This document shows positions 5,341 through 53,974 of a stretch of 53,974 nucleotides of DNA, piece after piece. This DNA is from Anaerolineales bacterium (GTDB lineage: Bacteria > Chloroflexota > Anaerolineae > Anaerolineales > UBA4823), in assembly GCA_016932955.1 (NCBI GenBank), contig JAFGBV010000217.1, forward strand, positions 1 through 53,974, written 5' to 3'. How positions within the stretch are numbered: the stretch's first letter is position 1; the number at the start of each line of letters is the position of its first letter. A model generated the notes under the pieces. That model saw nothing but the letters and a program-made list of their open reading frames with translations. It ran no database searches and was not told the origin of the DNA. A program made the translations under genes and the position numbers.

Positions 5341-5347
5341 GATCCCC

Positions 5348-5944
5348 ATGAATAATGTGCTCATCCTCACCCTCGCCGCATTACTGGTTACGATAACCTC
5401 CCTGATCTTGCTGGTCAGTCAGGACTGGCGCTGGGTCATAGCCACCCTGGCAATCCAATACCTGGGTGTGATGGTGCTGGTCTATTCCTTCTGGCCTCTG
5501 GAAATGGCCATTGCAAAAATGATCGCCGGGTGGATGGCAGGCGCCGTATTAGGCATGGCAGTCACCAGCACACCCAATTCCTGGCAGGAACAGGAGCGGC
5601 CATGGCCTTCAGGCCGCTTGTTCCGCTTACTCGCAGCCTCGTTGGTGATAATCACCTTCGCATCCTTCTACCGTCACGGGGAAAACTGGATCACCCCCAT
5701 CTCTCCTCCCGCTTTGTGGGGAGGATTGATCCTGATCGGCATGGGCCTGCTGCACCTCGGCCTCACCACCCAGCCCTTACGTGTGGTGATTGGTTTGCTG
5801 ACCGTGCTGTCCGGTTTTGAGATCCTGTATGCCGCCGTCGAGACCTCCTCCCTGGTTGCCGGTCTTCTTGCCGGTGTTCACCTTGGGTTAGCCCTAGTGG
5901 GTGCATATCTCATCATGGCCCCCGAGATGGAAGCGAACGCATGA
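5348..5944 (+). CDS. HyfE/NuoK-like membrane protein
   Basis: This 198-residue polytopic protein has about six hydrophobic segments. The C-terminal part (residues 132-188) resembles NuoK: a glycine-rich first helix, the loop TTQPLR, a second helix with Glu158 (GFEILYAAVE) where NuoK has its first conserved Glu, and a third helix where the second NuoK Glu (AAAEASIGLAL) is replaced by His178 (GVHLGLALVG). An extra N-terminal half of two or three helices is as in hydrogenase-4 subunit E (HyfE, about 216 aa). It starts 7 nt after the NuoL-like gene and overlaps the NuoN-like gene by an ATGA, so the three are surely cotranslated. Probable role: membrane-arm subunit of a complex I-like assembly. 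Confidence 0.65.
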   Translation: MNNVLILTLAALLVTITSLILLVSQDWRWVIATLAIQYLGVMVLVYSFWPLEMAIAKMIAGWMAGAVLGMAVTSTPNSWQEQERPWPSGRLFRLLAASLVIITFASFYRHGENWITPISPPALWGGLILIGMGLLHLGLTTQPLRVVIGLLTVLSGFEILYAAVETSSLVAGLLAGVHLGLALVGAYLIMAPEMEANA

Positions 5945-9910: not shown

Positions 9911-11824
9911 ATGCGCGTGATTGGCACCGCCGGACACGTTGACCACGGCAAATCCACCCTGGTTCAAGCCCTCACTGGAATCCATCCCGATCGCCTGAAG
10001 GAAGAACGCGAGCGCGAGATGACCATCGATCTGGGCTTTGCCTGGCTCACCCTGCCGGGTGGTGAAGAGATCGGCATCGTCGATGTGCCTGGTCATCGCG
10101 ATTTCATCGAAAACATGCTTTCCGGTATTGGCGGTATCGACGCTGCTTTGTTCGTCATCGCCGCGGACGAAGGCATCATGCCCCAAACCCGCGAACACCT
10201 CGCCATCCTCGACCTTCTCCAGATCAAAGGCGGTGTTATCGCTCTCACTAAAGTAGATCTCATTGATGATCCAGACTGGCTTGATCTTGTCGAGGAAGAT
10301 GTACGCCAGGCAATGCAGAACACAGTCCTGGGCAATGCCGCCATTGTCCGCGTCTCTTCGCGCACGCGACAGGGCATCCCCCAATTGCTCCAATCACTCG
10401 AAGGTTGCCTTGCCGATCAGCCACACCGTCCCGATCTTGGTCGCCCGCGCTTGCCAGTCGATCGCGTCTTCACCATTGCTGGTTTTGGTACGGTGGTCAC
10501 CGGCACGCTCAGTGATGGGCAGTTGAAGCTTGGAGAGGAAGTGATCATCTTACCCGCCGGCCTGCGCGGGCGTGTGCGTGGCTTGCAGACCCATAAGCAT
10601 AAAGAAGAGCGCGCCTTGCCTGGGAGCCGCACCGCAGTCAATATCACTGGCATAGATGTCAACCAGGTACAACGTGGAGATGTGGTAACAATCCCAGGTG
10701 CATACCACCCCACCAGCCTACTCGATGTGCAGTTTCGCATCCTCCCAGATGCTCAGCAACCCCTCGAGCACAACACAGAAGTGAAATTCTTTATCGGCGC
10801 CGCTGAAGTGCTCGCCCGCACCCGCCTGCTAGGCGCAGAAACCCTCCCCCCCGGCGAGCATGGTTGGCTGCAGCTACAATTAAATGAGCCGGTTGTAGCA
10901 ATGCGCGGTGACCGTTACATCATACGCCGCCCCTCCCCCGGCGAGACCCTCGGCGGGGGGATTATCGTCGACCCTCAGCCCCGTAAGCGGCACAAACGTT
11001 TCTCTGCCGATGTGATCCAGCGCCTGGAAACCCTCAGCCAGGGTACCCCTGCCGAGGTACTGCTCCAGGCAATGCTGGCCCTTGGTGTTGCCCCCCTCCA
11101 GGATGTCATTAAACGGTCCAATCTGGATACATCAACCGCACAGCAAGCCATCTCTGAGCTCATGCAGAGCGGGATTATCCTGCCTCTCGAAGGAGGTCAA
11201 ACCCCCACCCTCCCATCCCCTCAGACTCTCATCAGCAGCAAAGGCTATTGGGAAGAGCTTGCCAGCCGTGCGGTCCAGGAGGTGCAGGATTATCACAAAG
11301 CCCATCCACTGCGCCAGGGAATGCCACGCGAGGAATTAAAAAGCCGCCTGCGGTTTACAGCGACACCTCAGGGATCACGCATCTTCAGCCTAAGCCTTAA
11401 TCGCCTCGTCACCGAAAAAGCCCTCGTCGATAAAGGTGTCATCCTCTCCCACCCAGATCACAGCATCCGTTTTAATCCCCAACAACAGCGCATCGTAGAC
11501 GAGCTTCTAAAACGCTTTGCCGCTGCTCCCTATGCCCCGCCACCCGTCAAAGAATGCCTCACTGCCCTGGGAGACGAGTTATACAACGCGCTCATCGAGA
11601 TGGGGGTATTGGTGCCCATCCCGCCAGACGTGGTATTTCGGCAGCAGGATTACGAGCACATGCTTCAGGAGATACGTAGCTTGATTCAGAAATACGGCTC
11701 GGTCACCGCAGCGCAGGTGCGCGACCATTTCAACACCAGCCGTCGCTATGTTCTGGCATTGCTTGAACATCTCGATGCCCAGGGAATCACCCTGCGCGAG
11801 GGCGATCTACGCCGCCTGAAATAA
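9911..11824 (+). CDS. selB: Selenocysteine-specific elongation factor SelB
   Basis: SelB is the GTPase that brings Sec-tRNA(Sec) to UGA codons next to a SECIS hairpin. The 637-residue protein has the full translational GTPase set: G1 GHVDHGKST at residues 8-16, the T of MTIDLGFAW, G3 DVPGH, and G4 TKVD. After it come two beta-barrel EF-Tu-like domains, a SelB-type third barrel (with GDRYIIRRPSPGETLGGG), and a long C-terminal region of winged-helix repeats (about 385-637) that binds SECIS RNA. The N-terminal 8-residue start and the absence of the EF-Tu ASxS pattern separate it from EF-Tu. AGGAG precedes the ATG. selA, selD and tRNA-Sec are not in the window, so they should lie elsewhere if the trait is functional. 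Confidence 0.95.
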   Translation: MRVIGTAGHVDHGKSTLVQALTGIHPDRLKEEREREMTIDLGFAWLTLPGGEEIGIVDVPGHRDFIENMLSGIGGIDAALFVIAADEGIMPQTREHLAILDLLQIKGGVIALTKVDLIDDPDWLDLVEEDVRQAMQNTVLGNAAIVRVSSRTRQGIPQLLQSLEGCLADQPHRPDLGRPRLPVDRVFTIAGFGTVVTGTLSDGQLKLGEEVIILPAGLRGRVRGLQTHKHKEERALPGSRTAVNITGIDVNQVQRGDVVTIPGAYHPTSLLDVQFRILPDAQQPLEHNTEVKFFIGAAEVLARTRLLGAETLPPGEHGWLQLQLNEPVVAMRGDRYIIRRPSPGETLGGGIIVDPQPRKRHKRFSADVIQRLETLSQGTPAEVLLQAMLALGVAPLQDVIKRSNLDTSTAQQAISELMQSGIILPLEGGQTPTLPSPQTLISSKGYWEELASRAVQEVQDYHKAHPLRQGMPREELKSRLRFTATPQGSRIFSLSLNRLVTEKALVDKGVILSHPDHSIRFNPQQQRIVDELLKRFAAAPYAPPPVKECLTALGDELYNALIEMGVLVPIPPDVVFRQQDYEHMLQEIRSLIQKYGSVTAAQVRDHFNTSRRYVLALLEHLDAQGITLREGDLRRLK

Positions 11825-16689: not shown

Positions 16690-18780
16690 ATGCTCAAACC
16701 ATTCTTCTCACCCCAAGGCGTTGCTGTGATTGGCGCCTCCCAGGATCCCACCAAGCTGGGGTATGGATTAGCCCGCAACATCGTGCAAAGCAACTATCAT
16801 GGTGCGGTTCACTTTGTCAACCCGAAGGAGGGTCGGCTGTTGGGGCAGACCATCTATCCCAGCATCCTGCAAGTGCCTGACCCCGTTGACCTGGCTATCA
16901 TCCTGATCCCCGCGCCTGGCATCCCGCAGGCATTGCGCGAATGCGCCCAGCGCGGCATTACCGCAGCCATCATAGCATCTGGTGGTTTCCGCGAGACTGG
17001 CGAAGAAGGCGCACGCCGCGAGGCCGAGATCGTCCAGATTGCCCAACAGCACCAGATGCGTCTCCTCGGCCCAAACTGCATTGGCCTGTTGGATACTCAC
17101 CTTCCGATTGATGCTACCTTCCTTCCCCCGCCAGGACCTCTTCCTGGCGATGTGGCCTTCGTCTCCCATTCCGGGGCTATTTGCGCCGCCGTCATCGATT
17201 GGGCGCGAGGACAGGGCTTTGGTCTTTCGCGCCTGGTCAGCCTGGGCAACCAGGCCGACATAACCGAGACCGAGTTGCTCATGCCCATGGCTGCCGACCC
17301 CTACACAAAAGTCATCACCCTATACCTGGAAGGAATCAGCAACGGGCGGAAATTCATCGAGCAAGCCCAACAGGTTACCCCGCGCAAGCCAATCATCGCC
17401 CTCAAAGTGGGTCGTTACGCCGCCGGGCAGCGAGCAGCAGCCTCGCATACGGGCGCCCTGGCTGGACAAGAGAATGCTTTCAATGCCGCCTTCCGTCGGG
17501 CAGGTGTGATCCGGGCTGATACCAGCGAGGAGCTCTTCGATTGGGCACGCGCCTTGGCATGGTGCCCTCCCCCTAAAGGCCGTGCCATTGCTGTACTGAC
17601 CAACGCTGGTGGCCCCGGCGTAACCGCTGCCGACGCCCTGGAAGCTAACGGCATGCAACTGGCCGAATTGCAACCCACCACACGCACATCCCTGGCAAGT
17701 CATCTGCCCCATGCAGCCAGCCTGCATAATCCCATCGATATGCTTGCCTCCGCCACCCCAGAACAGTACGCCGCCTGCCTGGAAATTCTCCTCAACGATG
17801 AAGGCGTGGCTGGAGTCCTGGTCATCTTTCCTCCCCCTCCCATGTACACAGCTGGCGCCGTCGCCAAAGCGATTATTCCCATCATCCACAACGCCGAAAA
17901 ACCCGTCACGGTTGCCCTGATGGGAGAAAAGCTGATCCAAGAAGCCGTCGAACACTTCCGCGCTGCGCATGTCGTCGAGTATCGCTTCCCAGAGCGCGCC
18001 GCTTCTGCTCTTGCCATCTTGGCCCAGCGCGCTGAATTTCTCGCTCGCGCCAATGCCCAGGCCTTCCCTCCCATTTCCTGCAACAAAGAAACCGTTCAAT
18101 CGATCCTGCAAACAGTCCTTCCCGGATTCCTGGACGGCGAGAAGACCAACCGCATCCTGCAGGCCTATGGAATCCCAGTCACGGCTGAGCGACTGGCACA
18201 AAACGCCCAGCAGGCTGTGGAGTTTGCCCTGGAATACGGTGTTCCGGTTGCACTGAAAGTGTCGTCACCTGACGTGGTGCATAAATCTGATGTCGGAGGC
18301 GTGCTCCTCAACCTGGAGAACGCAGAAGCTGTTAAAAATGGCTACGATACTGTCCTGAGCAATATATTGAAGGCGCACCCAACAGCCAAGATCCGCGGAG
18401 TGACCGTGCAACCAATGCTTTCCACAGGCCAGGAGGTGATCTTAGGAGTTGTGCAAGATGCCCAATTTGGTCCGCTGGTAATGTTTGGTTCTGGTGGTGT
18501 AGAAGTGGAAGGGCTAAAGGACGTGAGTTTTGCACTGGCTCCCCTCACACCGCCCGAAGCCGAGTTCATGCTTTCCACCACTTGGGCAGGTAAGAAGCTC
18601 AATGGTTTTCGCGGCCAACCGCCTGCTGACCGCCAAGCACTGCTCGATGTAATGGTGCGCCTGGCGCAGTTAGCCAGTGATTTTCCCGACATCACTGAGG
18701 TGGAAATCAACCCCCTGCGTGTGCTCCCCGCTGGGCAAGGCGCCTTTGCCCTCGATGCACGCATGCGTTTTTCTGGCTAA
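16690..18780 (+). CDS. ADP-forming acetyl/acyl-CoA synthetase (fused alpha-beta)
   Basis: This 696-residue NDP-forming acyl-CoA synthetase converts acetyl-CoA (or other acyl-CoA), ADP and phosphate to acid, CoA and ATP, conserving energy in fermentation. Order: CoA-binding Rossmann domain (VAVIGASQDPTKLGYG, about 1-130), succinyl-CoA-ligase-like domain with LLGPNCIG and FVSHSGA, the phosphohistidine site ASHTGALAG (about residue 255), then an ATP-grasp domain from about 470 (FALEYGVPVALKVSSPDVVHKSDVGG) to the end. The single-chain alpha-beta fusion matches the roughly 700-aa form found in archaea and some Chloroflexota. It follows the lipoprotein gene by 9 nt. Substrate range (acetate, branched-chain, aryl acids) is not readable. 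Confidence 0.93.
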   Translation: MLKPFFSPQGVAVIGASQDPTKLGYGLARNIVQSNYHGAVHFVNPKEGRLLGQTIYPSILQVPDPVDLAIILIPAPGIPQALRECAQRGITAAIIASGGFRETGEEGARREAEIVQIAQQHQMRLLGPNCIGLLDTHLPIDATFLPPPGPLPGDVAFVSHSGAICAAVIDWARGQGFGLSRLVSLGNQADITETELLMPMAADPYTKVITLYLEGISNGRKFIEQAQQVTPRKPIIALKVGRYAAGQRAAASHTGALAGQENAFNAAFRRAGVIRADTSEELFDWARALAWCPPPKGRAIAVLTNAGGPGVTAADALEANGMQLAELQPTTRTSLASHLPHAASLHNPIDMLASATPEQYAACLEILLNDEGVAGVLVIFPPPPMYTAGAVAKAIIPIIHNAEKPVTVALMGEKLIQEAVEHFRAAHVVEYRFPERAASALAILAQRAEFLARANAQAFPPISCNKETVQSILQTVLPGFLDGEKTNRILQAYGIPVTAERLAQNAQQAVEFALEYGVPVALKVSSPDVVHKSDVGGVLLNLENAEAVKNGYDTVLSNILKAHPTAKIRGVTVQPMLSTGQEVILGVVQDAQFGPLVMFGSGGVEVEGLKDVSFALAPLTPPEAEFMLSTTWAGKKLNGFRGQPPADRQALLDVMVRLAQLASDFPDITEVEINPLRVLPAGQGAFALDARMRFSG

Positions 18781-27039: not shown

Positions 27040-28578
27040 ATGCCAAATCAAATCGTTGAATGCATCCCCAATTTCTCCGACGCGCGTCGCCCCCAGGTTA
27101 TCGAAGCAATCGCTCAAGCCATTACCTCCGTTGAGGGCGCCCAATTGCTCGACCGCCACTCCGATATGGATCATAACCGCACCGTGCTCACCTTCGCTGG
27201 CGCGCCCGCCGCCGTCGAAGAGGCAGCCTTTCGCGCCATCCAGAAAGCCGCTGAGCTGATCAACCTGGACGAGCACCAGGGCGAGCATCCCCGCATCGGT
27301 GCCACGGATGTGGTGCCTTTCGTGCCCATCTCCGGCATCACCATGGAAGATTGTGTTCAGATCGCTCGCCGTTTAGGCAAGCGCGTCGGCGAGCAGCTTG
27401 ACATTCCCGTCTACCTCTACGAGGAAGCTTCCAATCGTTCCGACCGCAAGAACCTGGAAGATATCCGCCGCGGGCAATACGAGGCTCTCAAAGCAGAGAT
27501 GGGCGTGAACCCCTACCGCGATCCTGATTTTGGCCCCCGTCGTATCGGCACCGCCGGCGCCACCGTCATCGGCGCGCGCCAGCCGCTCATTGCGTTCAAT
27601 GTCTACCTCACCACCGCCGATGTCAGCATTGCCGAAAAAGTCGCTCGTGCCGTGCGCCATTCGTCCGGCGGTTTGCGCTTCGTCAAAGCGCTCGGGCTGC
27701 TTGTTGAAGGTCAGGCTCAGGTTTCAATGAACCTCACCAACTATCGCAAAACACCCATTGCGCGCGTGGTGGAAATGATCCGTCGCGAGGCCCAGCGTTA
27801 TGGGGTTGAGATTCACCACTCCGAGCTGGTCGGCCTCATCCCCCAGGATGCCCTGGTGGATGCTGCCCAATGGTACATGCAGATGGATCAATTCGAGAAA
27901 GGACAGATCCTTGAAGGTCGCCTCTATACTGCTCTGCAAGGTGGCTCACAAAGCGAAGCCCCAGATTTCATTGCCCAGTTGGCCGCCGCCACGCCTACAC
28001 CCGGTGGCGGCTCTGCTGCTGCCCACACCGGCGCAGCCGGGGCTGCCCTGGTAGCCATGGTCTGCCGCCTCACCATTGGACGCAAGAAATACGCCGCCGT
28101 AGAAGCCCAAATGCGCTCTGTGCTTGATCAAGCCGAAGTATTACGCGCCAGCCTGGAGATCGCCGTGGAGGAAGACGCCGCTGCTTACGAGCAGGTGATA
28201 GTAGCCTTCAAATTACCCAAGGATACCCCCGAGGAACAGGCCCGTCGCGCAGCCGCCATCGAGCAGGCCACCCTTAATGCCGCTCGCGTGCCATTGCAAG
28301 TTGCCCACCAGGCTGTGCAGGTGATGGAGCTTGCAGAGCAGGCCGTCGCGGTTGGCAACATCAACGCCCTCTCCGACGGGGGTGCCGGGGCAGCCCTTGC
28401 CCGCGCTTGCCTGGCTGGCGCAGGGCTGAATGTACGCACGAACCTGAACACACTTGCAGATCAAGCGTCTGGTGTCTCCCTCCTGGAAGAACTGCGCCTG
28501 CTGGAAACCCGCGCCGCCGTGGTCGAAACCCGTATACGCCAGATACTCCAAGAACGTGGGGGATTGATGCTGGTGTGA
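27040..28578 (+). CDS. ftcD: Bifunctional glutamate formimidoyltransferase / formimidoyltetrahydrofolate cyclodeaminase
   Basis: This 512-residue fusion acts in histidine catabolism. It moves the formimino group of formiminoglutamate to tetrahydrofolate, then deaminates it to 5,10-methenyl-THF. The transferase part (about 1-300) starts with IVECIPNFSDAR, contains LLDRHSDMDHNRTVLTF and EHPRIGATDVVPFVP, and ends near ILEGRLY. The cyclodeaminase part (about 310-505) shows the helical FTCD_C signature ATPTPGGGSAAAHTGA and GGAGAALARA. The arrangement is the same as mammalian FTCD (541 aa). Other hut genes are not in the window. It links folate metabolism with amino acid fermentation. Confidence 0.95.
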   Translation: MPNQIVECIPNFSDARRPQVIEAIAQAITSVEGAQLLDRHSDMDHNRTVLTFAGAPAAVEEAAFRAIQKAAELINLDEHQGEHPRIGATDVVPFVPISGITMEDCVQIARRLGKRVGEQLDIPVYLYEEASNRSDRKNLEDIRRGQYEALKAEMGVNPYRDPDFGPRRIGTAGATVIGARQPLIAFNVYLTTADVSIAEKVARAVRHSSGGLRFVKALGLLVEGQAQVSMNLTNYRKTPIARVVEMIRREAQRYGVEIHHSELVGLIPQDALVDAAQWYMQMDQFEKGQILEGRLYTALQGGSQSEAPDFIAQLAAATPTPGGGSAAAHTGAAGAALVAMVCRLTIGRKKYAAVEAQMRSVLDQAEVLRASLEIAVEEDAAAYEQVIVAFKLPKDTPEEQARRAAAIEQATLNAARVPLQVAHQAVQVMELAEQAVAVGNINALSDGGAGAALARACLAGAGLNVRTNLNTLADQASGVSLLEELRLLETRAAVVETRIRQILQERGGLMLV

Positions 28579-41312: not shown

Positions 41313-42353
41313 TTAACCTGCCAGCGCCGCCCCATAGGCTGAAACCACCCGTTCCAACGCAGCATCACCGATCCAATAGTGTAACACTAGCCGGAAGCGT
41401 CGCTTGCCCACCACGCCAACCCGTACCCCCTCCGTAGCCAAGCGCTCTGCCACATCAAAAGCCGTCCCCCGTATCTGCTCAGCCAGACTCGCAAAAATCA
41501 TATTCGTGTAGGGTGTGCCAGGGTCCAGCACCAGCCCAGGCAAATTAGCCAACTCCTCTGCCAACCGGCGTGCCCGGACATGATCCTCTGCCAGACGCTC
41601 AACCATCTTTTCCAGCGCCACAAGCCCTGCCGCTGCCAGGATGCCCGCCTGGCGCATTCCCCCACCCAATTGCTTGCGGATGCGATGCGCTCGTCGGATG
41701 AATTCCCGCGACCCGCACAACACCGAGCCAACCGGCGCACACAGCCCCTTGCTAAGGCAAAAAGTCACCGAATCCGCTGCTGCAGCCAGCGCACGCGCTT
41801 CCACACCCAGGGCGACTGCAGCGTTGAAAATGCGCGCCCCATCCAGGTGCAGCGCCAAGCCGCGTGCCTTCGCAAGCTCTCCCACCTTGTTGGTATATTC
41901 CTCACTTAAGGTCACACCCCCGCAACGGTTGTGCGTGTTTTCCAGCGCGATCAGGCGTGTCACCGGGTTGTGGGCGTCATCTGAGCGGATCGCCGCCTGG
42001 ATATCTTCCAGCGTCAACGTCCCGTCCGCCTGGTTGGGGATCTGGCAGGAGTGCACTCCTCCCAGTGCGGAGATCCCCCCCGCCTCATACAAAAATGTAT
42101 GCGCCTTGTTGCCCAGGATCACCTCATCCCCACGCCCGCAGTGAGCCAGGATCGCCGCCAGGTTGCCCATCGTCCCCGAAGGTACAAACAAGCCCGCCTC
42201 CTTGCCCATCAGCTCCGCCGAAACCTCCTGTAAGCGGTTCACCGTAGGATCTTCCCCATATACATCGTCCCCCACGGGTGCATTCGCCATCGCCTCGCGC
42301 ATGGCGGGTGTGGGATGGCTTACCGTGTCCGAGCGTAGATCGATCAATTCCAT
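41313..42353 (-). CDS. ltaE: Low-specificity L-threonine aldolase
   Basis: This 346-residue PLP enzyme of fold type I cleaves threonine or allo-threonine to glycine and acetaldehyde. It has the N-terminal [19 protein letters not shown], the [16 protein letters not shown] segment, [19 protein letters not shown] (Asp for pyridine N), and the PLP lysine in [12 protein letters not shown]. Length and motif order match LtaE. ATG 42353, with GGAGAGG at 6 nt, is chosen over an upstream ATG. It follows rluD by 23 nt and is probably in the same operon. Confidence 0.93.
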
Positions 42354-42376
42354 AATGCCCTCTCCAATAAACAAGA

Positions 42377-43315
42377 TCACTTGCGTAGCGTTTCGAGTAA
42401 CGCCGCCAATTCCTCCGGCAGCGGCGCTTCAAAAGTCCTTGCCTGGCGCTCATCCGGCAGGTGAATAGTCAGCCGGGCAGCATGAAGGAAATGCCTCTTG
42501 AGCGGGATGCTCGATTTTTTATGCCCATACACCATATCCCCCGCCACAGGGCAGCCAAGGAAAGCCATGTGCAGGCGAATCTGGTGCGTTCGCCCCGTCA
42601 GTGGATGCACCTCCAGCAGTGTGTGCAAGGGCGGCCTCACCCCGTGCGGGAAAGTCTCTAAAGTTGTGTACTCGCTGACCGCCGGGCGGCCTTTCGTTTC
42701 ACTGGTCACCGCCATCAACTTGCGGTTGGCGCTGCTGCGCCCAATCGCCACCTCAATCCGCCCGTTTGGTGTGGGTGGGTTTCCATCCACCAGCGTCAGG
42801 TACACCTTTTCCGTCTTGCGCAAGCGGAATTGCTCTTGTAAAAAATGGTGTGTGTGATCATTCTTGGCAAGTAGGATCAGTCCCGACGTGTCCTTATCCA
42901 GGCGGTGCACCACCCCTGGGCGCTTTTCTCCCCCAACGCCTGCCATCTCCGGCGCGTGCGCCAGCACAGCATGCACCAGCGTTCCCGTCGCATGCCCCGC
43001 TGCTGGGTGCACCACCATCCCTGCTGGCTTATCCACCACCAGCAGGTGCTCATTTTCAAATACAATTTGCAGTGGTATGTCCTCTGGGATCAATTGTGTA
43101 GGTGCAAGTGGCGGGATGCGCACCTCGATTGCATCTCCCTGCTCCAGCATCTTGCCGCTCTTTTTCGGAGTCACCCCATTCACAGTGACACAACCTTCAT
43201 CCACCAGGCTTTGTAAGCGCGAGCGCGAAAACTCCCCCAGGCACGCCACCAGGAATTTATCCAGGCGTTGCGGGGCATCCTCGTCAAAGTGCAGAACGAC
43301 TACCCGCTCGCTCAA
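42377..43315 (-). CDS. rluD: Ribosomal large subunit pseudouridine synthase (RluD-like)
   Basis: This roughly 312-residue protein has an S4 domain (about 15-70; [22 protein letters not shown]) followed by the RluA/RluD catalytic domain. The catalytic Asp is in [12 protein letters not shown], with PAGMVVHP before it and [15 protein letters not shown] (conserved Arg) after it. The enzyme isomerises uridines in 23S rRNA helix 69. There is no ATG in a sensible place. TTG 43315, with AGGAG inside the end of lspA, fits both homology and the 7-nt gap. Length is normal. The lspA-rluD order is a common bacterial pairing. Confidence 0.92.
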
Positions 43316-47645: not shown

Positions 47646-48854
47646 TCAGCAAACCTTCTCAACAATATGAATATTGTGTCTCTTCAGGTTTTCAATCAGG
47701 AAATCGTACGCCGCCCCATAAATGCCATCCTCCGGCGCCACAATCCCCTTCTCCTTGATCATGCCCTTCCCAAGCAGCACCGCCCCTAGCGTCGCCGAAA
47801 AACCCGTCACCCGCGCCATCGAAGTGAATCCGTTCGGCTCGCCCTCATCCCACATGTGGTAGGTGATGCGCACATCCTTGCCATCCTTCTTCCCCTCCAC
47901 CGTGTTGTACATCACGCAGGTATCCAGGTCGCCTGCCTTCGGCTCCAGCCGTGGCGTCAGCACCTTCGAGAGCACCAGGCGCGGCACAAAGCAGTCCACC
48001 GGCTCGATCTCCAGCATACCGCACTCCTTCAGCGTCTGGATGCCCTGCCAGTGACCCGGCCAGCGTACCGTCTTCTCTGCAAAATAATCCACATTCGGAC
48101 GCGTGTACACAAAACTCGGCATCCCCGGCGTAATGAACGCCTCCAGCTCCTCATCCCTTCCCAGTTCAGCGAAGTGGAAAGTCTCGTACTCATCCATCGC
48201 CTGTACCACTGTCGGCTTTCCATTCTTGATGATCTGCACCTTAATCATGTACTCGCGCAGCACATGCGCAAAAGCCCAGGTGATCATGTATTTCAGTGGG
48301 TGGCGTGCGGCAGTTTCTTTCGATGGGATGCCCCCCACGCGAGCTACCGCCCGGCTCACACTGTCCAGCTTGCGCATCGCGTTTCCCACGGTGACATTGC
48401 TCAGCCCGGGCGCAAAACCCATCCCATCCAGGATCGTGATCCCCTTTTCCACTGCGCGTTCATGCAGCCAATCGCCGTAGTCCTCGTAACTCATCTCATG
48501 CCGGTGCAGCCCCTCATCCTCCTCCACATCCGGGCGGCGGTGATACTCCTCCAGCACATCCACGAAATTGATCCCCGCCTCGATCGCTGCCTCCATTGCT
48601 AGGTAGCTTGTGTGCCGAGTGGGCAGCGTGCTCACCGCTACGTCATATTGCTTCATCATTTCAGCGGTGTCTGAATCATTCTCGATATTCAGCGCGTGAG
48701 TCACTATCTTTTCACCCAACCAGTGCTTCACCGTCGAGAGCCCCACTTCGCTGGCATCTGCAATGCCCACCATCTCACAGCCGTAATTCGTTACCAGGTC
48801 CCAAGCCACGGCGCGACCAATCTTGCCGCAACCACCGATCACTAGTGCCTTCAT
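47646..48854 (-). CDS. Saccharopine dehydrogenase-like NAD(P)-dependent oxidoreductase
   Basis: This 402-residue protein has an N-terminal Rossmann fold (KALVIGGCGKIGRAVA, glycine motif at 7-12) and the general layout of saccharopine dehydrogenase/lysine-6-dehydrogenase-like enzymes (PTRHTSYLAMEAAIEAGINFVDV, DGMGFAPGLSN, GGIP). It could interconvert an amino acid with an oxo acid through a saccharopine-like adduct, or oxidise lysine. ATG 48854 with AGGAG is chosen, leaving 110 nt to the stop of leuD. That gap carries a three-copy repeat. Being last in a row with LeuC/D-like and IDH-like genes, it may belong to an amino-acid route. The exact substrate is unknown. Confidence 0.8.
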   Translation of the reverse strand: MKALVIGGCGKIGRAVAWDLVTNYGCEMVGIADASEVGLSTVKHWLGEKIVTHALNIENDSDTAEMMKQYDVAVSTLPTRHTSYLAMEAAIEAGINFVDVLEEYHRRPDVEEDEGLHRHEMSYEDYGDWLHERAVEKGITILDGMGFAPGLSNVTVGNAMRKLDSVSRAVARVGGIPSKETAARHPLKYMITWAFAHVLREYMIKVQIIKNGKPTVVQAMDEYETFHFAELGRDEELEAFITPGMPSFVYTRPNVDYFAEKTVRWPGHWQGIQTLKECGMLEIEPVDCFVPRLVLSKVLTPRLEPKAGDLDTCVMYNTVEGKKDGKDVRITYHMWDEGEPNGFTSMARVTGFSATLGAVLLGKGMIKEKGIVAPEDGIYGAAYDFLIENLKRHNIHIVEKVC

Positions 48855-48964: not shown

Positions 48965-49459
48965 TCACTGCTTCCTCTCTAGCAACCGCTGGCGGGTGTA
49001 CGGGATCAATCCGCCCGCATCGATGATTGCCTGCCGCGACTGCGGCAACGCCTGGATGGCAAAAGACTTCCCGCTCGTCTGATTCACCACCCACTCCTTG
49101 CCCACTTCCAGTTCATCCCCCTCCTCCGCCTCGATCTCCGGGCAGATCACCGTACGCAACCCCAGGTTGATCGAGTTCTGCAGAAAGATGCGCGCAAAAT
49201 GCCGCGCCACCACCACCAGCTCCGGCCCCTTCAGGCACGAAGCCGCCTGCTCGCGCGAAGATCCACAGCCAAAATTCTTCCCCGCCACGATCACACTGCC
49301 CGGCGGGATATCCCCGTTCTTCAATGCCTTGTTGAACGCTCCGTGGTCTGCAAACGCATACTGCGGTGTCTCGCTCGGCAGCACCGTCGCCATGTACCGC
49401 CCGGGATAGATAATATCAGTCGAGATATCATCGCCAAGTTTCAATACCACTTTACCCAT
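48965..49459 (-). CDS. leuD: 3-isopropylmalate dehydratase small subunit / aconitase-family swivel domain (LeuD-like)
   Basis: This 164-residue swivel-domain subunit pairs with the LeuC-like protein to isomerise a hydroxy-dicarboxylate. It has the GDDISTDIIYPGRY opening, the active-site loop FGCGSSREQA, and LRTVICPEIEAEEGDELEV. The short archaeal-type length (about 165) is as in HacB/LeuD2. The substrate-specificity loop reads YMAT after PGR, matching neither the YLRT reported for homoaconitase nor YLVY for isopropylmalate isomerase, so specificity is open. A 1-nt gap separates it from leuC, with the ribosome-binding site inside leuC's end. Confidence 0.82.
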   Translation of the reverse strand: MGKVVLKLGDDISTDIIYPGRYMATVLPSETPQYAFADHGAFNKALKNGDIPPGSVIVAGKNFGCGSSREQAASCLKGPELVVVARHFARIFLQNSINLGLRTVICPEIEAEEGDELEVGKEWVVNQTSGKSFAIQALPQSRQAIIDAGGLIPYTRQRLLERKQ

Positions 49460-49460
49460 C

Positions 49461-50765
49461 TTAACCTCCTGTCCGTGGGTCGGTGATCACACCGGTAATC
49501 GCACTGGCAGCCGCCACAGCCGGAGAACATAAATACACTTCCGCTGTTGGATTGCCCATCCGTCCCTTGAAGTTGCGGTTGGTCGTCGCCAGCGCCACAT
49601 CACCATCTGCCAGCGCCCCCTGGTGCACCCCCAGGCACGGTCCGCAGCCCGAGTTCATCACCACCGCCCCGGCTGCCATCAGCGCGCTCAGGTAGCCCAG
49701 CTTCATCGCTTCCTGGTAAATACGCGCCGAGGCTGGGAACACCAACATGCGCACCCCGCGCGCTACCCGCTTGCCATCCAGGATCTTTGCCGCAATCTCA
49801 ATATCGTCCAGCCGCCCATTCGTGCACGAGCCAATCACGATCTGTTGGATCACCTTCCCTGCCACCTCCTGCACTGGCTTCACATTGTCCACCGTGTGGG
49901 GGCAAGCAATCTGCGGTTCCAACGCTGCCGCGTCGATCTCGATCACCCGCTCGTAAACCGCCCCCTCGTCAGGCCCAAAGATCGTCACCTCCTCCGGCAC
50001 ACCTGCTACCTCCTTGAGGTAGCGCAGCGTCTCTGCATCCGGCGGCACGATCCCCGAAGTGGCCCCCGCCTCTACTGACATGTTGCAGATCGTCAGGCGG
50101 CCTGAGGTATCCATGCTGCGGATCGTCTCGCCGTGGAACTCGATAACCTTATAGTTCGCCCCCTCCGCCGTCAGCTTGCCGATCAGATACAGGATCAGGT
50201 CCTTTGCAAACACGCTTGGCCTAAACTTGCCATTCACCACCACCTTGATCGTCCCCGGCACTTCCACGTTCAGCACGCTGCCCAGCGCCCACACCGAGGC
50301 CATTTCTGTTGCGCCAATCCCAAAGGCGAACGCCCCCAGCGCCCCATGACTCGTCGTGTGGCTGTCCGTGCCCACCACCACTGCCCCCGGGCGCACATAG
50401 CCGTTCTCTGGCAGGATCTGGTGACAGATGCCCCCCTCGTCACCGCGGATATCATGGAATTTCGCGATTCCCTGTTTGCCCACGAAATCGCGCACCTTCT
50501 TCTGGTTTGTCGCCGTCTTTGCGCTTTCTGCCGGTACGCGGTGATCGAAGATGATTGCAATCTTCGAGGGGTCCCACACCTTTGCTTCCAGCCCGGTACC
50601 CTTGTAGACTTCCAGGAACTGATTGAGCACCAGCGCGCCGTTCTCGTGCGACATCGCCAAATCTACCTTCGGCTCCACAACCTCCCCCGCCTGCACAGCC
50701 GTCTTTCCGCTGGCCCTGGCAAGGATCTTTTCAACCATCGTCATTGCATGCACATTTTCTCCCAT
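49461..50765 (-). CDS. leuC: 3-isopropylmalate dehydratase large subunit / aconitase-family hydratase (LeuC-like)
   Basis: This 434-residue Fe-S hydratase has the 4Fe-4S ligands Cys in VIGSCTNGR and the pair in NSGCGPCLG; GTDSHTTSHGALGAFAFG carries catalytic His and Ser. The TKxR-like region reads ATTNRNFKGRMG. Length fits the short two-subunit type (LeuC2/HacA/DmdA, about 420) rather than bacterial LeuC (about 466). It may act on isopropylmalate, homocitrate, citramalate or dimethylmalate. ATG 50765 follows AGGAGA. It sits between a CoA transferase gene and leuD, 12 nt downstream of the former. Confidence 0.86.
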   Translation of the reverse strand: MGENVHAMTMVEKILARASGKTAVQAGEVVEPKVDLAMSHENGALVLNQFLEVYKGTGLEAKVWDPSKIAIIFDHRVPAESAKTATNQKKVRDFVGKQGIAKFHDIRGDEGGICHQILPENGYVRPGAVVVGTDSHTTSHGALGAFAFGIGATEMASVWALGSVLNVEVPGTIKVVVNGKFRPSVFAKDLILYLIGKLTAEGANYKVIEFHGETIRSMDTSGRLTICNMSVEAGATSGIVPPDAETLRYLKEVAGVPEEVTIFGPDEGAVYERVIEIDAAALEPQIACPHTVDNVKPVQEVAGKVIQQIVIGSCTNGRLDDIEIAAKILDGKRVARGVRMLVFPASARIYQEAMKLGYLSALMAAGAVVMNSGCGPCLGVHQGALADGDVALATTNRNFKGRMGNPTAEVYLCSPAVAAASAITGVITDPRTGG

Positions 50766-50777
50766 AAAGTTCTCCTT

Positions 50778-51971
50778 CTAAATTGCCATCTTCTCTTTCA
50801 TTGTCTTGATCTCATCCGGCGTGTATCCCAGCTCCGTCAGGATCGCTTCTGTATGCTCCGAAAGCCGCGGCGAAGGCATGGTGATCTCCGCTGGTGTCTT
50901 CGAGAACTTCGCCGTCATGTTGAACACTTTCACCGGACCAATCCCCGGTTGCTCCACATCTGCGCTCACCTCGCGATATTGCGCCTGGGGCTGGGTCAGT
51001 GCCTCTTCCAGGCTCAGGATATCCCCTGAAGGGATGCCCTTCGCGTTCAGCACTTCTACCCAGTAATCGGTCGTGTTTTGCACCAGCTTCTCCTCCAGCA
51101 GCGGCGTCAGCAAGAAACGATTCCCCTTGCGCGTATCCCGTTCCTGGAAGCGTGGATCGGTCTTCAGCTCTGGCACGCCTAGCTCATCCGCTAGGCCTTC
51201 CCACTGCTGCTGCTGGTTAGCGGCAATATTGATATAGCCGTCCTTCGTGCGGAAGGTGCCCGAAGGCGCCGCGGTGAAATTATCGTTTCCCAGCAGCACC
51301 GGCTGCTGCCCGCCAATCAGCAGATTCGCCGCAACCCAGCCCATCAGCGGCATGATCGAATCCAGCAGCGCAATATCGATGAACTGTCCTTCGCCTGTGC
51401 GCTCGCGGTGGTACAGTGCCGCCATCACCGCAAAAGCCGCATTCAGCCCGCCTACTGTATCACAAACCGGGAAACCGCAGCGCAGCGGGTTCAGCCGTTC
51501 ATCCCCGTTAATCGCCATCACCCCAGAAAGCCCCTGGATGATCTGGTCATAGGCTGGCTTGAAGGCATCCGGTCCCGTCTGCCCGAATCCAGAGATGGCG
51601 CAGTAGATCAACCGCGGGTTGATCTTGCACAATTCTTCATAAGAAAAGCCCAAGCGCGCCATCACCCCCGGGCGGAAGTTCTCTACCAGCACATCGGCCG
51701 TCGCCGCCAGCCGGCGGAACACCTCCTTCGCCTCCGGGATTTTTAAATTCAGCGTCAGCGACTTCTTGTTCGAATTCTGCGCCAAAAAGCTCGTCCCCAG
51801 CAGCTCTTTATTGTACTTGGGCACATTGCCCAGTTTGCGCGCCAGGTCGCCCCCATCCGGGTTCTCGATCTTGATCACATCTGCCCCCAGCAGCGCCAGG
51901 TGCAGCGTGGCAAACGGCCCGGAAAGCACGTTGGTCATATCCAGCACGCGGATCCCTTCCAGCAGTCTCAT
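50778..51971 (-). CDS. CaiB/BaiF (family III) CoA transferase
   Basis: This 397-residue CoA transferase moves CoA between carboxylic acids by a family III mechanism. It starts with LLEGIRVLDMTNVLSGPFAT, has the CoA-binding LLGADVIKIENPDGGD, and the catalytic Asp in QFIDIALLDSIM (about residue 200). It also has NFRPGVMARLGFSYEEL and a C-terminal QAQYREVSADVEQP. It could activate a hydroxy-dicarboxylate such as citramalate for the lyase next to it. The stop of the lyase and the start here are 1 nt apart, with GGAAGGAG inside the lyase end, so expression is coupled. Relatives act on formyl-CoA, carnitine, bile acids, succinyl-CoA and others. Confidence 0.93.
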   Translation of the reverse strand: MRLLEGIRVLDMTNVLSGPFATLHLALLGADVIKIENPDGGDLARKLGNVPKYNKELLGTSFLAQNSNKKSLTLNLKIPEAKEVFRRLAATADVLVENFRPGVMARLGFSYEELCKINPRLIYCAISGFGQTGPDAFKPAYDQIIQGLSGVMAINGDERLNPLRCGFPVCDTVGGLNAAFAVMAALYHRERTGEGQFIDIALLDSIMPLMGWVAANLLIGGQQPVLLGNDNFTAAPSGTFRTKDGYINIAANQQQQWEGLADELGVPELKTDPRFQERDTRKGNRFLLTPLLEEKLVQNTTDYWVEVLNAKGIPSGDILSLEEALTQPQAQYREVSADVEQPGIGPVKVFNMTAKFSKTPAEITMPSPRLSEHTEAILTELGYTPDEIKTMKEKMAI

Positions 51972-51972
51972 A

Positions 51973-52890
51973 TCAGCTCCTTCCCTGGAAATTCACAATC
52001 GAGCCTGATTTTAAAATGAAGCCGGGCAGTTGGCGGTCAAAGAACGCGCCTACTTGCCGCGCCACATCCAGCAATGCCTCCAGGTCAATGTCCTGGCGGT
52101 AGCCCATGCGCTGCAGCGAATGCACCAGATCTTCCGTGCTCACATTCCCCGCCGGCACTTTAGTGAAGGGACAGCCGCCCAGCCCGCCAAACGCCGCCTC
52201 GAAGTAGCGCACCCCGCTGCGCAGGGCGGCATAGCAGTTAGCCAGCCCCAGCCCGTAGGTGTTGTGGAAGTGGCAGGCGAGCTCTACCTCCGGGTCCAAC
52301 GCGCGGATTGCCGCATAAAGTGCCTCCACCTGCAGCGGCTGCGCGTGCCCAGCCGTATCCGCCAGGCTGATATTGCGGATTCCCGCCTCCAGGTAAGTCT
52401 TCACGATCGAAAGTACCTTCTCCTGCGCCACCGCCCCCTCGAAGCCACAGCCAAATGCCGACTGCACCGAAGCCTGCACCGCCTTGCCCGCTGCCATTGC
52501 CTGTTGCGCCATCGCCACGATCCGCCCCTGCGCCTCGCTGGTGCTCATCCCCGTGTTCTTCTGGCTGTGCGTCTCGCTTGCTGAAACCCCCATGCAGAAC
52601 ATCTCCACTCCACATGCCATCCCCCGCTCCAGGCCGCGCTCGTTCAGCACCAGGCCCGAAAGGGTGACATGCGCCGGCTTGGTTGCCGTAAAATGCCGGA
52701 ACAGCGCGTCCGTGTCTGCCATCTGGGGCACCTTCTCCGGATGAACGAAAGAACCAAGCTGGATGATGTCGATCCCCGAAGCGAAGAGACCCTCGATCCA
52801 GGCCATCTTCTGTTCTAGCGGCACCACAGCCTTCTCCACCTGGAGCCCGTCGCGCGGTCCCACCTCATGAATATAGATTTTCTCCATCAC
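51973..52890 (-). CDS. Hydroxymethylglutaryl-CoA lyase-like enzyme
   Basis: This 305-residue TIM-barrel lyase of the HMGL/DRE-TIM family cleaves a 3-hydroxy-acyl-CoA to acetyl-CoA plus an oxo acid. It has EVGPRDGLQ (catalytic Arg and Asp), the metal His pair in ACHFHNTYG (relatives have HxHDT; here Asn follows), and the flexible loop GGLGGCPFTKVPAGN with the active-site Cys. It differs from LeuA/homocitrate synthases, which begin xLRDGxQ and lack the GGCP loop. The start is GTG 52890 or ATG 52887. It is flanked by an IDH-like gene and the CoA transferase gene. The substrate may be HMG-CoA, citramalyl-CoA or a longer analogue. Confidence 0.88.
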   Translation of the reverse strand: MMEKIYIHEVGPRDGLQVEKAVVPLEQKMAWIEGLFASGIDIIQLGSFVHPEKVPQMADTDALFRHFTATKPAHVTLSGLVLNERGLERGMACGVEMFCMGVSASETHSQKNTGMSTSEAQGRIVAMAQQAMAAGKAVQASVQSAFGCGFEGAVAQEKVLSIVKTYLEAGIRNISLADTAGHAQPLQVEALYAAIRALDPEVELACHFHNTYGLGLANCYAALRSGVRYFEAAFGGLGGCPFTKVPAGNVSTEDLVHSLQRMGYRQDIDLEALLDVARQVGAFFDRQLPGFILKSGSIVNFQGRS

Positions 52891-52896
52891 CAGCCT

Positions 52897-53974
52897 CTAC
52901 AGCTTCGCCGCGATGGCTTCGCCAACCTGCAGCGTAGTGCTCGACCCGCCCATGTCGTAGGTGCGTACCTCGCCTTCTTTGATCACCTCTGCCGTGGCTC
53001 GCTCGAGCGCTGTGGCTTTTTCCGTTTCGCCCAGCCAATCAAGCATCATCTTCGCCGAGAGGATCGCCGCGATCGGGTTCACCTTGTATTGCCCCGCATA
53101 TTTAGGCGCCGAGCCGTGCGAAGGTTCGAACACTGCCAGCTTCTGCCCGATATTGCCGGAGCAGCCAAAGCCCAGCCCGCCCACAAGTTGTGCCGCTAGG
53201 TCAGAGATGATATCCCCGAACATGTTTGTCGCCACCACCACATCATAAGACTTGGGATTCTTTACCAGCCACATGCACATCGCGTCGATGTTGGCATCAT
53301 CCACCTCGATCTCCGGGAACTCCTTCGCCACCTCTTTGGCAATCTCCAGGAACAAACCCTCCGTCGCGCGTACCACGTTGGCCTTGTGGATCACCGTGAC
53401 CTTGCGCCGCTTGTACTTGCGAGCATACTCGAAGGCCGCCCGGATAATACGCTCAGAGCCTTTGCGGGTGACGATTTTGTTCGAGATGGCGTACTGGTCA
53501 ACTGGTAGATCCTTGAAAGCGCCAAACGGCTTGGAAAGCTTGCCCAGCACCTCCGCCAGCTCCTGTGGGACTGGGTTGAACTCCACCCCCGAATATAAGT
53601 CCTCGGTATTTTCGCGGAAGACCACCAGGTCAATATCATCCTTGTAGTTCAGCGGGTTGCCGGGGTAAGCCTTGCACGGGCGCAGGCAGATGTAGAGGTC
53701 AAACATCTGGCGCATGCGCACGATCGGCGAGCGGTACACATATCCCTTACCCTGCAGCTCGGGCGCCAGCTCCGCCTCAGAGGCTTTCACCGGCTTGGAG
53801 GTGATGGCGCCGAACATTGCCGCATCCACGTTCTTGAGCAGCTCAACGGTGCGGGTGGGGAAGGCATCGCCCTCCTTGCACCAGAACTCCCAGCCGATGT
53901 CGCCGTGGATATACTCGGCATCCAGCTTCAGCTTATCGAGCACAATCCGCGTCGCATCCAGCACATCCACGCCA
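52897..53974 (-). CDS. Isocitrate/isopropylmalate dehydrogenase family protein (5' end cut by window)
   Basis: At least 358 residues; the start lies beyond the window, so the first 10-20 residues (including the usual GDGIG) are missing. This NAD(P)-dependent beta-decarboxylating dehydrogenase has SPIVRMRQMFDLYICLRP, FRENTEDLYSGVE, the catalytic Lys in VTVIHKANVVRATEGLF, and the metal Asp residues in TNMFGDIISDLAAQL, then EPSHGSAPKYAG. The substrate could be isocitrate, homoisocitrate, 3-isopropylmalate, 3-methylmalate or tartrate; the loop at RMRQMFDLY does not decide it for me. The stop is 6 nt before the lyase start, so it is upstream in the same operon. Confidence 0.85.
   Translation of the reverse strand, partial: GVDVLDATRIVLDKLKLDAEYIHGDIGWEFWCKEGDAFPTRTVELLKNVDAAMFGAITSKPVKASEAELAPELQGKGYVYRSPIVRMRQMFDLYICLRPCKAYPGNPLNYKDDIDLVVFRENTEDLYSGVEFNPVPQELAEVLGKLSKPFGAFKDLPVDQYAISNKIVTRKGSERIIRAAFEYARKYKRRKVTVIHKANVVRATEGLFLEIAKEVAKEFPEIEVDDANIDAMCMWLVKNPKSYDVVVATNMFGDIISDLAAQLVGGLGFGCSGNIGQKLAVFEPSHGSAPKYAGQYKVNPIAAILSAKMMLDWLGETEKATALERATAEVIKEGEVRTYDMGGSSTTLQVGEAIAAKL

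Follow-up and report, generated by a model that had tools for sequence, protein, structure and literature searches.

The locus described here raises the question of what is made or broken down by an operon that joins an isocitrate dehydrogenase (IDH)-type enzyme to an HMG-CoA-lyase (HMGL)-type enzyme, a CaiB-type CoA transferase and the two subunits of a LeuC/LeuD-type isomerase. The operon lies at one end of contig JAFGBV010000217.1 from an Anaerolineales bacterium (assembly GCA_016932955.1), a stretch of 53,974 nucleotides that was analysed as a whole and is referred to as the window. On its minus strand, from 53973 to 48965, the coordinates of the open reading frames (ORFs) give five consecutive genes in the order IDH type, HMGL type, CaiB type, LeuC type and LeuD type, separated by gaps of 6, 1, 12 and 1 nt, and the proteins match, in the same order, PF00180, PF00682, PF02515, PF00330 and PF00694. 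The 5' end of the operon is beyond the window edge, where the IDH-type ORF is truncated. A first-pass annotation of this DNA had described a tight five-gene operon on one strand, and the gaps and Pfam matches bear this out. Judged from sequence comparisons, the operon is a real, widely conserved module that probably provides the lower steps of lysine catabolism; we consider it likely that it runs the chemistry of the alpha-aminoadipate pathway backwards.

Conservation and families of the five genes

Genomes were scanned with the window lyase, and the best 80 of 132 loci were fetched. When an intact module is defined by the order IDH-HMGL-CaiB-LeuC-LeuD with gaps below 1.6 kb, it is present in 43 of the 80 loci, and because the same order recurs in so many of them, the five-gene arrangement is not a product of chance. 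The intact loci carry 12 different phylum names over 38 loci, and five loci have none; these names were taken from record titles, and some labels of metagenome-assembled genomes (MAGs) may be wrong (L040, titled Chrysiogenales, falls with L039, titled Acidobacteria). In six loci the dehydrogenase is missing and the last four genes are kept, in two it is placed last (L030 and L073), LeuCD lies about 7 kb off in L031, and L025 has a 2.5-kb insert; the remaining 27 loci contain fewer module genes, many of them being short contigs. Identities to the window proteins are mostly 60 to 89% across loci, and Anaerolineales MAGs (Chloroflexota) are among the nearest homologues of the lyase (up to 83%). 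A full-length dehydrogenase homologue (61 to 80% identity) was found elsewhere in 11 of the 19 genomes, many of them Zixibacteria, that have little or no dehydrogenase at the lyase locus; six others gave weaker or partial matches and two none at 1e-40. Family-level relatives of genome G003 gave 1 of 38 genomes and hence added no new neighbourhoods. In the Zixibacteria locus L025, which is devoid of the dehydrogenase, a ROK-family and a PrpB/PEP-mutase-like gene lie between CaiB and LeuC (3820 to 6125).

The HMGL-type lyase (51973 to 52890, minus strand), a putative homocitryl-CoA lyase, scores 284 bits on PRK05692 against a cut-off of 246. Its residues R13, D14, H207, H209, C240 and N249 are conserved in 82 to 83 of 83 homologues (residue counts refer to homologues above 50% identity, and the lyase set includes two paralogues without CaiB, L101 and L103), and we take the Arg-Asp pair, the His-x-His motif, the Cys and the Asn to be catalytic. 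Score and catalytic residues together place the protein in the PRK05692 HMG-CoA-lyase-type subfamily, as a predicted activity; on the homocitrate synthase model TIGR02146 it reaches 73.9 bits, versus a cut-off of 413.55. The best solved relative of the transferase (50778 to 51971, minus strand; PF02515, 405 bits), a putative acyl-CoA:homocitrate CoA transferase, is succinate--hydroxymethylglutarate CoA-transferase (SUGCT; 9br6, 273 bits). Its D171, conserved in 77 of 77 homologues, aligns with an Asp in both 9br6 and 10uh, a formyl-CoA transferase, presumably the catalytic residue of class III transferases (Asp169 of formyl-CoA transferase), and together with the PF02515 match this predicts a class III CoA transferase. 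HMG, the substrate of SUGCT, resembles homocitrate around the CoA-accepting carboxyl group. Lyase and CaiB-type transferase form a single ORF of 701 to 772 amino acids in four loci (L031, L046, L050 and L059), which suggests that a CoA ester is passed between them.

The large subunit of the aconitase superfamily (LeuC/HacA type; 49461 to 50765, minus strand) scores 530 bits on the hacA_fam model TIGR01343 (cut-off 385.7), and the small subunit (LeuD/HacB type; 48965 to 49459, minus strand) 119.9 bits on TIGR02087 (cut-off 108.95), matches by which the pair is predicted to belong to the homoaconitase/IPMI-type subfamily (hacA_fam; LeuD/DmdB). Cys314, Cys374 and Cys377 of the large subunit, which we assume to be the [4Fe-4S] cysteines, are kept in 61 of 61 homologues. 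The fifth enzyme (52897 to 53973, minus strand, 5' end cut; PF00180, 291 bits) is of the IDH/isopropylmalate/homoisocitrate-dehydrogenase type and is a putative homoisocitrate dehydrogenase that would act as a reductive 2-oxoadipate carboxylase. Its motif YRSPIVRMRQ is complete in 66 homologues except for one residue in one of them. The first-pass annotation had held that the operon is not simply one for leucine, and the scores on the leucine models agree, all being under cut-off: 200.5 versus 353.2 bits for leuB (TIGR00169), 454.6 versus 610.65 for LEU2 (TIGR02083) and 117.2 versus 245.85 for leud (TIGR02084).

Lysine genes beside the module and the proposed route

A sixth gene, absent from the first-pass annotation, follows approximately 110 nt downstream of LeuD on the minus strand (about 47646 to 48854; its start was set at an inner ATG, and the open frame extends up to 48950). 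Its product contains the Sacchrp_dh_NADP and Sacchrp_dh_C domains (PF16653, 132 bits), had no NCBIfam match at 1e-5, and has 3abi as best PDB match with 128 bits, the next being at 37.5. 3ABI is called an L-lysine 6-dehydrogenase in PMC10413350. This similarity to a characterised member predicts an L-lysine 6-dehydrogenase, the putative entry enzyme that would convert lysine into aminoadipate semialdehyde. A gene of this kind follows LeuD in the window and in L001, L002 and L006, all of Anaerolineales.

Other lysine genes adjoin the cluster in further lineages. In the Anaerolineae loci L008 and L013 the neighbour is piperideine-6-carboxylate dehydrogenase (P6CDH; 769 and 763 bits, cut-off 730), and L013 additionally has two FAD oxidase/dehydrogenase-type genes and an ornithine-cyclodeaminase-type gene. 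In Elusimicrobiota, lysine-ketoglutarate reductase (LKR) and saccharopine dehydrogenase (SACDH) adjoin cluster genes in L072 (AASS LKR match at 4e-83), L097, L099, L104, L109 and genome G458 (L150). Two of these loci form runs on one strand, P6CDH-LKR-SACDH-HMGL-CaiB-LeuC-LeuD-IDH in L109 and IDH-HMGL-CaiB-LeuC-LeuD-LKR-SACDH-P6CDH in L099, with genes named by tblastn similarity (53 to 79%). L073/L110 has the order P6CDH-HMGL-CaiB-LeuC-LeuD-IDH-aminotransferase, and a GABA-transaminase-like aminotransferase follows the cluster in L061, L062, L098 and L102. A 612-residue protein of the aldehyde:ferredoxin oxidoreductase family lies nearby in L072, L097, L100, L102 and L105; the four copies scanned score 225 to 235 bits, far under the cut-off of 868 of the sole matching model, and the protein could oxidise aminoadipate semialdehyde where P6CDH is not seen. 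Lysine-linked genes occur in 10 of the 81 loci of the first set, via several non-homologous routes, and in the lyase tree the lysine-linked clusters occupy three places, namely Anaerolineae, the main Elusimicrobiota and L109/L073.

The association extends to whole genomes. The 247 Elusimicrobiota genomes include 14 with the lyase (E <= 1e-90) and 8 with LKR (E <= 1e-50); LKR is in 7 of the 14 genomes that have the lyase versus 1 of the 233 that do not (Fisher p 2.6e-9, uncorrected for kinship). LKR lies beside cluster genes in six of these seven; in the seventh, G487, it is on another contig, and the contig with the cluster stops roughly 130 nt beyond the lyase. Among 298 Anaerolineae, a lysine dehydrogenase of the window type at 83 to 84% identity was found only in G001 and G003, with 52 to 57% homologues in six more genomes, and the same two genomes were the only ones with a lyase above 550 bits among the 199 Anaerolineae searched for it, 14 others giving 207 to 254 bits. 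Further searches covered the whole genomes of 50 of the 80 cluster genomes, for the most part ones whose loci were longer. Twelve of the 50 have a P6CDH above cut-off, and G045 gave an incomplete match of 708 bits; LKR is present in 13 (one partial), and 21 have at least one of P6CDH, LKR and the window-type lysine dehydrogenase; in G019, LKR, SACDH and P6CDH are together, apart from the cluster (L114). The presence of PF16653, found in 44 of the 50, was rejected as evidence of lysine metabolism, since it is also found in 110 of 199 Anaerolineae. Many cluster genomes without a true P6CDH share a second aldehyde-dehydrogenase class, which scores about 370 to 400 bits on the model for P6CDH.

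The lysine-catabolism reading is based on gene order, protein families, conserved catalytic residues, the fusion, lysine-gene linkage in two phyla and the kinship of the dehydrogenase; from these we infer what each enzyme acts on, which donor supplies CoA and that the route is catabolic. Depending on the lineage, lysine would be converted into aminoadipate semialdehyde by lysine 6-dehydrogenase, by LKR and SACDH or possibly by an omega-aminotransferase, and P6CDH, or possibly the aldehyde:ferredoxin oxidoreductase, would yield 2-aminoadipate, to be transaminated to 2-oxoadipate. The IDH-type enzyme would then reductively carboxylate 2-oxoadipate with CO2 and NAD(P)H to homoisocitrate, which the LeuCD-type isomerase would convert via homoaconitate into homocitrate. 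The class III transferase would activate homocitrate to homocitryl-CoA, with succinyl-CoA as probable donor, and the HMGL-type lyase would cleave it to acetyl-CoA and 2-oxoglutarate, so that transferase and lyase would stand in for homocitrate synthase. Carbons C1 and C2 of lysine would leave as acetyl-CoA, and C3 to C6 together with the fixed CO2, as C1, would form 2-oxoglutarate. A 2-oxoacid:ferredoxin oxidoreductase, located close to the cluster in L042, L044, L061, L062, L066, L067 and L075, could turn 2-oxoglutarate into succinyl-CoA. With somewhat lower confidence, but still as the probable case, we propose that the module provides an oxygen-independent, carboxylating fate of 2-oxoadipate in which homocitrate is CoA-activated and cleaved by an HMGL-type homocitryl-CoA lyase and CO2 is fixed into C1 of 2-oxoglutarate, and that it does so under at least 12 phylum names, mostly of uncultured bacteria.

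Direction and substrate

The kinship of the dehydrogenase bears on the substrate. In 19 other Anaerolineae (of 199 searched), dehydrogenases 55 to 71% identical to that of the window were found (at least 376 bits), and the neighbourhoods of 16 were fetched: two have LysX and homocitrate synthase, four a citryl-CoA-lyase cassette, and ten neither in the stretch read. The two lysine-type loci, L084/L112 and L088/L113, have dehydrogenases of 64 to 65% identity, homocitrate synthases of 474 and 477 bits in L112 and L113 (cut-off 413.55) and, in L112, a LysX of 349 bits (cut-off 275.6), to which the L113 copy is 84% identical; these clusters are alpha-aminoadipate lysine biosynthesis clusters. Their dehydrogenase motif, YRSPIVRLRQ, is one conservative change (M/L) from that of the window. 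The cassette (L086/L111, L087/L121, L090/L122 and L083/L116) has the order SucC-SucD-citryl-CoA-lyase-like-HD-LeuCD-LeuCD-IDH; transferase and HMGL are replaced in it by a ligase and a lyase of the citrate-synthase fold, and three of the four dehydrogenases have the motif YFSPIV. In a dehydrogenase tree (quick method, midpoint root), members from lysine biosynthesis and from the cassette share a clade neighbouring that of the main cluster, and outside both lie the dehydrogenases of L109/L073. This kinship is compatible with homoisocitrate as substrate and does not prove it; in this sequence-based comparison most weight is carried by the lysine linkage.

Local motifs were also considered. The coenzyme motif of the window dehydrogenase is HGSAPKY, and KY after HGSAP is a signature that we take E. 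coli NADP-IDH to share; it was rejected as an indicator of direction, KY also being present in 15 of 16 Anaerolineae sister dehydrogenases (DI in L091). An Arg in the substrate helix was rejected as proof of a distal carboxylate, the position of Thermus Arg85 being Val here. The LeuD loop, for which we assume the YLRT/YLVM specificity rule, was indecisive as substrate indicator: it reads GR[FY]MAT in all 46 homologues that exceed 50% identity, L109 and L073 being below 50% and different (RFLNI versus R[FY]MAT of the window type), and KYTYT in the lysine-biosynthesis sisters.

Several observations weigh against the lysine-catabolism reading. A candidate for a step from lysine to aminoadipate was found in the flanks of 17 of about 90 cluster genomes (the 80 first-scan loci, one genome each, the window and nine further Elusimicrobiota), or 13 if a lone aminotransferase is excluded, and the other 73 have none; among the flanks read, many of them short, direct lysine linkage is confined to Chloroflexota and Elusimicrobiota. 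None of P6CDH, LKR and the window-type lysine dehydrogenase was detected in 29 of the 50 genomes under strict criteria, the last having been searched only in Anaerolineae. The window yielded no identifiable 2-aminoadipate aminotransferase, and the aminotransferase of L061 is GABA-transaminase-like. The dehydrogenase is under the cut-offs of the AksF/iso_homocit_dh homoisocitrate dehydrogenase models (NF040626, 335.7/540; NF040619, 312.1/500; NF040855, 181.7/680), its best solved match is isocitrate dehydrogenase 6ltf with 244 bits, by a small margin over homoisocitrate dehydrogenase with 238, and it has Val where Thermus homoisocitrate dehydrogenase has Arg85, presumably its specificity residue. 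LeuCD and IDH of L109/L073 belong to a different branch from those of the window, and the LeuD loop of the window type is unlike both theirs and that of the sister clusters. The fungal and Thermus homoaconitases do not dehydrate homocitrate, and the M. jannaschii enzyme does, according to PMC3556520; one LeuCD pair may therefore not suffice. Finally, a lyase 60 to 65% identical to that of the window lies without CaiB in L103 (5692 to 13120) beside prpB, prpD, acyl-CoA dehydrogenase, biotin carboxylase and a second, distant HMGL-type gene, in what looks like branched-chain or propionate degradation; near relatives of the window lyase may thus do other chemistry, and the substrate cannot be read from the lyase sequence alone. 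The neighbours of L066, L075 and L025, discussed below with the alternatives, also count on this side.

The catabolic direction is indicated by several lines of evidence: the P6CDH step is oxidative, no homocitrate synthase or LysX homologue was found in the 96 cluster loci read, lysA is present in many cluster genomes, and the window has further genes usual in amino-acid fermenters (described below). Of the 50 genomes searched, 25 have a lysA over cut-off, 32 one at 1e-40 and 18 no match; it exceeds the cut-off in G001, G002, G004, G006 and G008 (five of the six Anaerolineae in the set) and in the Elusimicrobiota genome G044, with its adjacent LKR, so that these genomes need no second lysine synthesis. 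Alternatively, the module could work in the anabolic direction as a variant of lysine biosynthesis that replaces homocitrate synthase: acetyl-CoA and 2-oxoglutarate would give homocitryl-CoA, CoA would be recovered on succinate, and homocitrate would lead via homoisocitrate and 2-oxoadipate to 2-aminoadipate and lysine. The steps are reversible in principle, and two relatives of the dehydrogenase are in biosynthetic clusters. Eighteen of the 50 genomes have no lysA match at 1e-40, and G018, G021 and G023 to G025 (Aminicenantes/Acidobacteria by title) have LKR and a high-scoring SACDH together with no lysA match and no P6CDH over cut-off, so the opposite direction is possible there. Against it stand the lysA genes just named, the lack of homocitrate synthase and LysX homologues in the loci read, and the oxidative P6CDH beside the cluster in L008, L013, L073, L099 and L109, and we regard the anabolic direction as unlikely. 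The one-strand run of L099 and the result for the 96 loci strengthen the case for lysine catabolism.

The first-pass annotation had proposed an alkylmalate route run backwards, with a C4 oxo acid as example, which would give pyruvate and acetyl-CoA from citramalyl-CoA. Its chemical logic agrees best with the gene set and the catalytic residues conserved in it. The C4 substrate is less well supported, because the Chloroflexota and Elusimicrobiota neighbours indicate lysine, 2-aminoadipate and 2-oxoadipate, and two related dehydrogenases lie within lysine-biosynthesis clusters that also have LysX and homocitrate synthase. In a C4 route, 2-oxobutyrate and CO2 would form 3-methylmalate, and citramalate and citramalyl-CoA would then lead to pyruvate and acetyl-CoA, a means of oxidising threonine, methionine or propionate carbon. 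In its favour, R-citramalyl-CoA lyase is known to partner succinyl-CoA:(R)-citramalate CoA transferase (PMC8307300), and in the Ignavibacteria loci L066 (3494 to 7585) and L075 (4172 to 8503) a methionine-gamma-lyase-like gene and VorABC lie upstream on the same strand, a context that could reflect amino-acid fermentation in general or a C4 substrate. L012 and L023 contain distant members (32 to 36%) of the PLP family of methionine gamma-lyase. Given that such a close context was found in 2 of the 81 first-set loci, versus 10 of 81 with lysine-linked genes, the C4 route appears improbable.

A citrate-type route, in which 2-oxoglutarate and CO2 would pass via isocitrate, citrate and citryl-CoA to oxaloacetate and acetyl-CoA as an ATP-free reductive citrate branch, draws on the match of the dehydrogenase to 6ltf, on its KY coenzyme motif and on the sister cassette of Anaerolineae, which joins a related IDH with SucCD-like and citryl-CoA-lyase-like genes; the lysine-gene linkage and the IDH equivalog models, all under cut-off for the window dehydrogenase, make it very improbable. 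The least probable alternative is cleavage of isopropylmalyl-CoA, HMG-CoA or methylcitryl-CoA in a leucine- or methylcitrate-type route, which is favoured by the PrpB-like gene of L025, the prpB and prpD genes, acyl-CoA dehydrogenase and biotin carboxylase beside the L103 lyase and the SUGCT relationship of the transferase, and is opposed by the leuB, LEU2 and leud scores and by the lack of any CaiB, LeuCD or IDH homologue with the L103 lyase in the 19 kb read.

Relation to known systems and further observations

The proposed catabolic route shares with fungal and Thermus alpha-aminoadipate lysine biosynthesis the chemistry of homocitrate, homoaconitate, homoisocitrate and 2-oxoadipate as well as the isomerase and dehydrogenase families. 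The operon differs in having a CoA transferase and an HMGL-type lyase and in being linked to lysine-degrading enzymes, and the fact that no homocitrate synthase accompanies it argues that it is not alpha-aminoadipate biosynthesis. In mammals, lysine is degraded to glutaryl-CoA and leucine to HMG-CoA; SUGCT (9br6) is the best solved relative of the transferase, and mammalian HMG-CoA lyase (2cw6) is among the best of the lyase. Citryl-CoA synthetase and citryl-CoA lyase carry out a two-step citrate cleavage, in which a tricarboxylate is likewise activated and then cleaved to acetyl-CoA and a 2-oxo acid, but they belong to other protein families. The lyase and transferase partners of the R-citramalate system are presumably HMGL-type and CaiB-type proteins. 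As described in PMC8307300, they also transfer CoA to a 3-hydroxy-3-carboxy acid and cleave the product to acetyl-CoA and a 2-oxo acid; the proposed substrate of the operon is instead homocitrate, and its pair occurs in a fixed arrangement with isomerase and dehydrogenase and with lysine genes nearby. Fates of 2-oxoadipate given in PMC7286885 are glutaryl-CoA via 2-oxoadipate dehydrogenase and the O2-dependent HglS (DUF1338) route. Both start, like the operon, at 2-oxoadipate in lysine catabolism, and HglS likewise ends at 2-oxoglutarate; HglS needs O2 and decarboxylates, and the dehydrogenase yields glutaryl-CoA, whereas the operon would add CO2 without O2.

No prior description of a reversed alpha-aminoadipate lysine route was found in the literature searched, which included few subscription papers and no preprints, and the term homocitryl-CoA was absent there. 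Little is known about anaerobic lysine breakdown in the many phyla that are uncultured and probably live by fermentation. If the proposal is correct, 2-oxoadipate would have another fate besides the glutaryl-CoA and HglS routes, within a lysine pathway that needs neither an oxygenase nor a glutaryl-CoA step and that couples lysine breakdown to CO2 fixation. A biosynthetic route would have been reversed by exchanging an irreversible synthase for a transferase-lyase pair, and a gene cluster that is likely annotated as leucine biosynthesis plus HMG-CoA lyase would be explained. The carbon map predicts that 13CO2 would enter C1 of 2-oxoglutarate and glutamate and that C1 and C2 of lysine would exit jointly as acetyl-CoA.

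Further observations concern the surroundings of the clusters. A protein of about 300 residues is encoded downstream of LeuD in Aminicenantes and Acidobacteria loci (L035, 13997 to 14905, with the same family in L029, L032, L038 and L039); the L035 protein matched nothing in Pfam at 1e-5 or in NCBIfam at 1e-20. A family search identified subunits A and B of a 3-oxoacid CoA-transferase near the cluster in the Elusimicrobiota locus L109 (14473 to 15937), with homologues of 55 to 80% identity in L061, L062, L072, L074, L097, L100, L102, L105 and L108. A 54 to 55% homologue of the window lysine dehydrogenase is present elsewhere in the genomes of two bacteria with the sister cassette, G150 and G222. 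The lysine-biosynthesis cluster of L112 (7368 to 12296) joins a dapB-family gene to LysX, homocitrate synthase and LeuC in a single run and seems to mix parts of alpha-aminoadipate and diaminopimelate type.

The window itself also encodes a SelB-type elongation factor (9911 to 11824), an acyl-CoA-ligase-like protein of the ADP-forming type (16690 to 18780; below curated cut-offs), a formiminotransferase-cyclodeaminase (27040 to 28578) and a threonine-aldolase-type protein (41313 to 42380). Formiminotransferase-cyclodeaminase and ADP-forming acyl-CoA ligases are usual in amino-acid fermenters, and the last three of these window proteins fit an amino-acid-degrading host.

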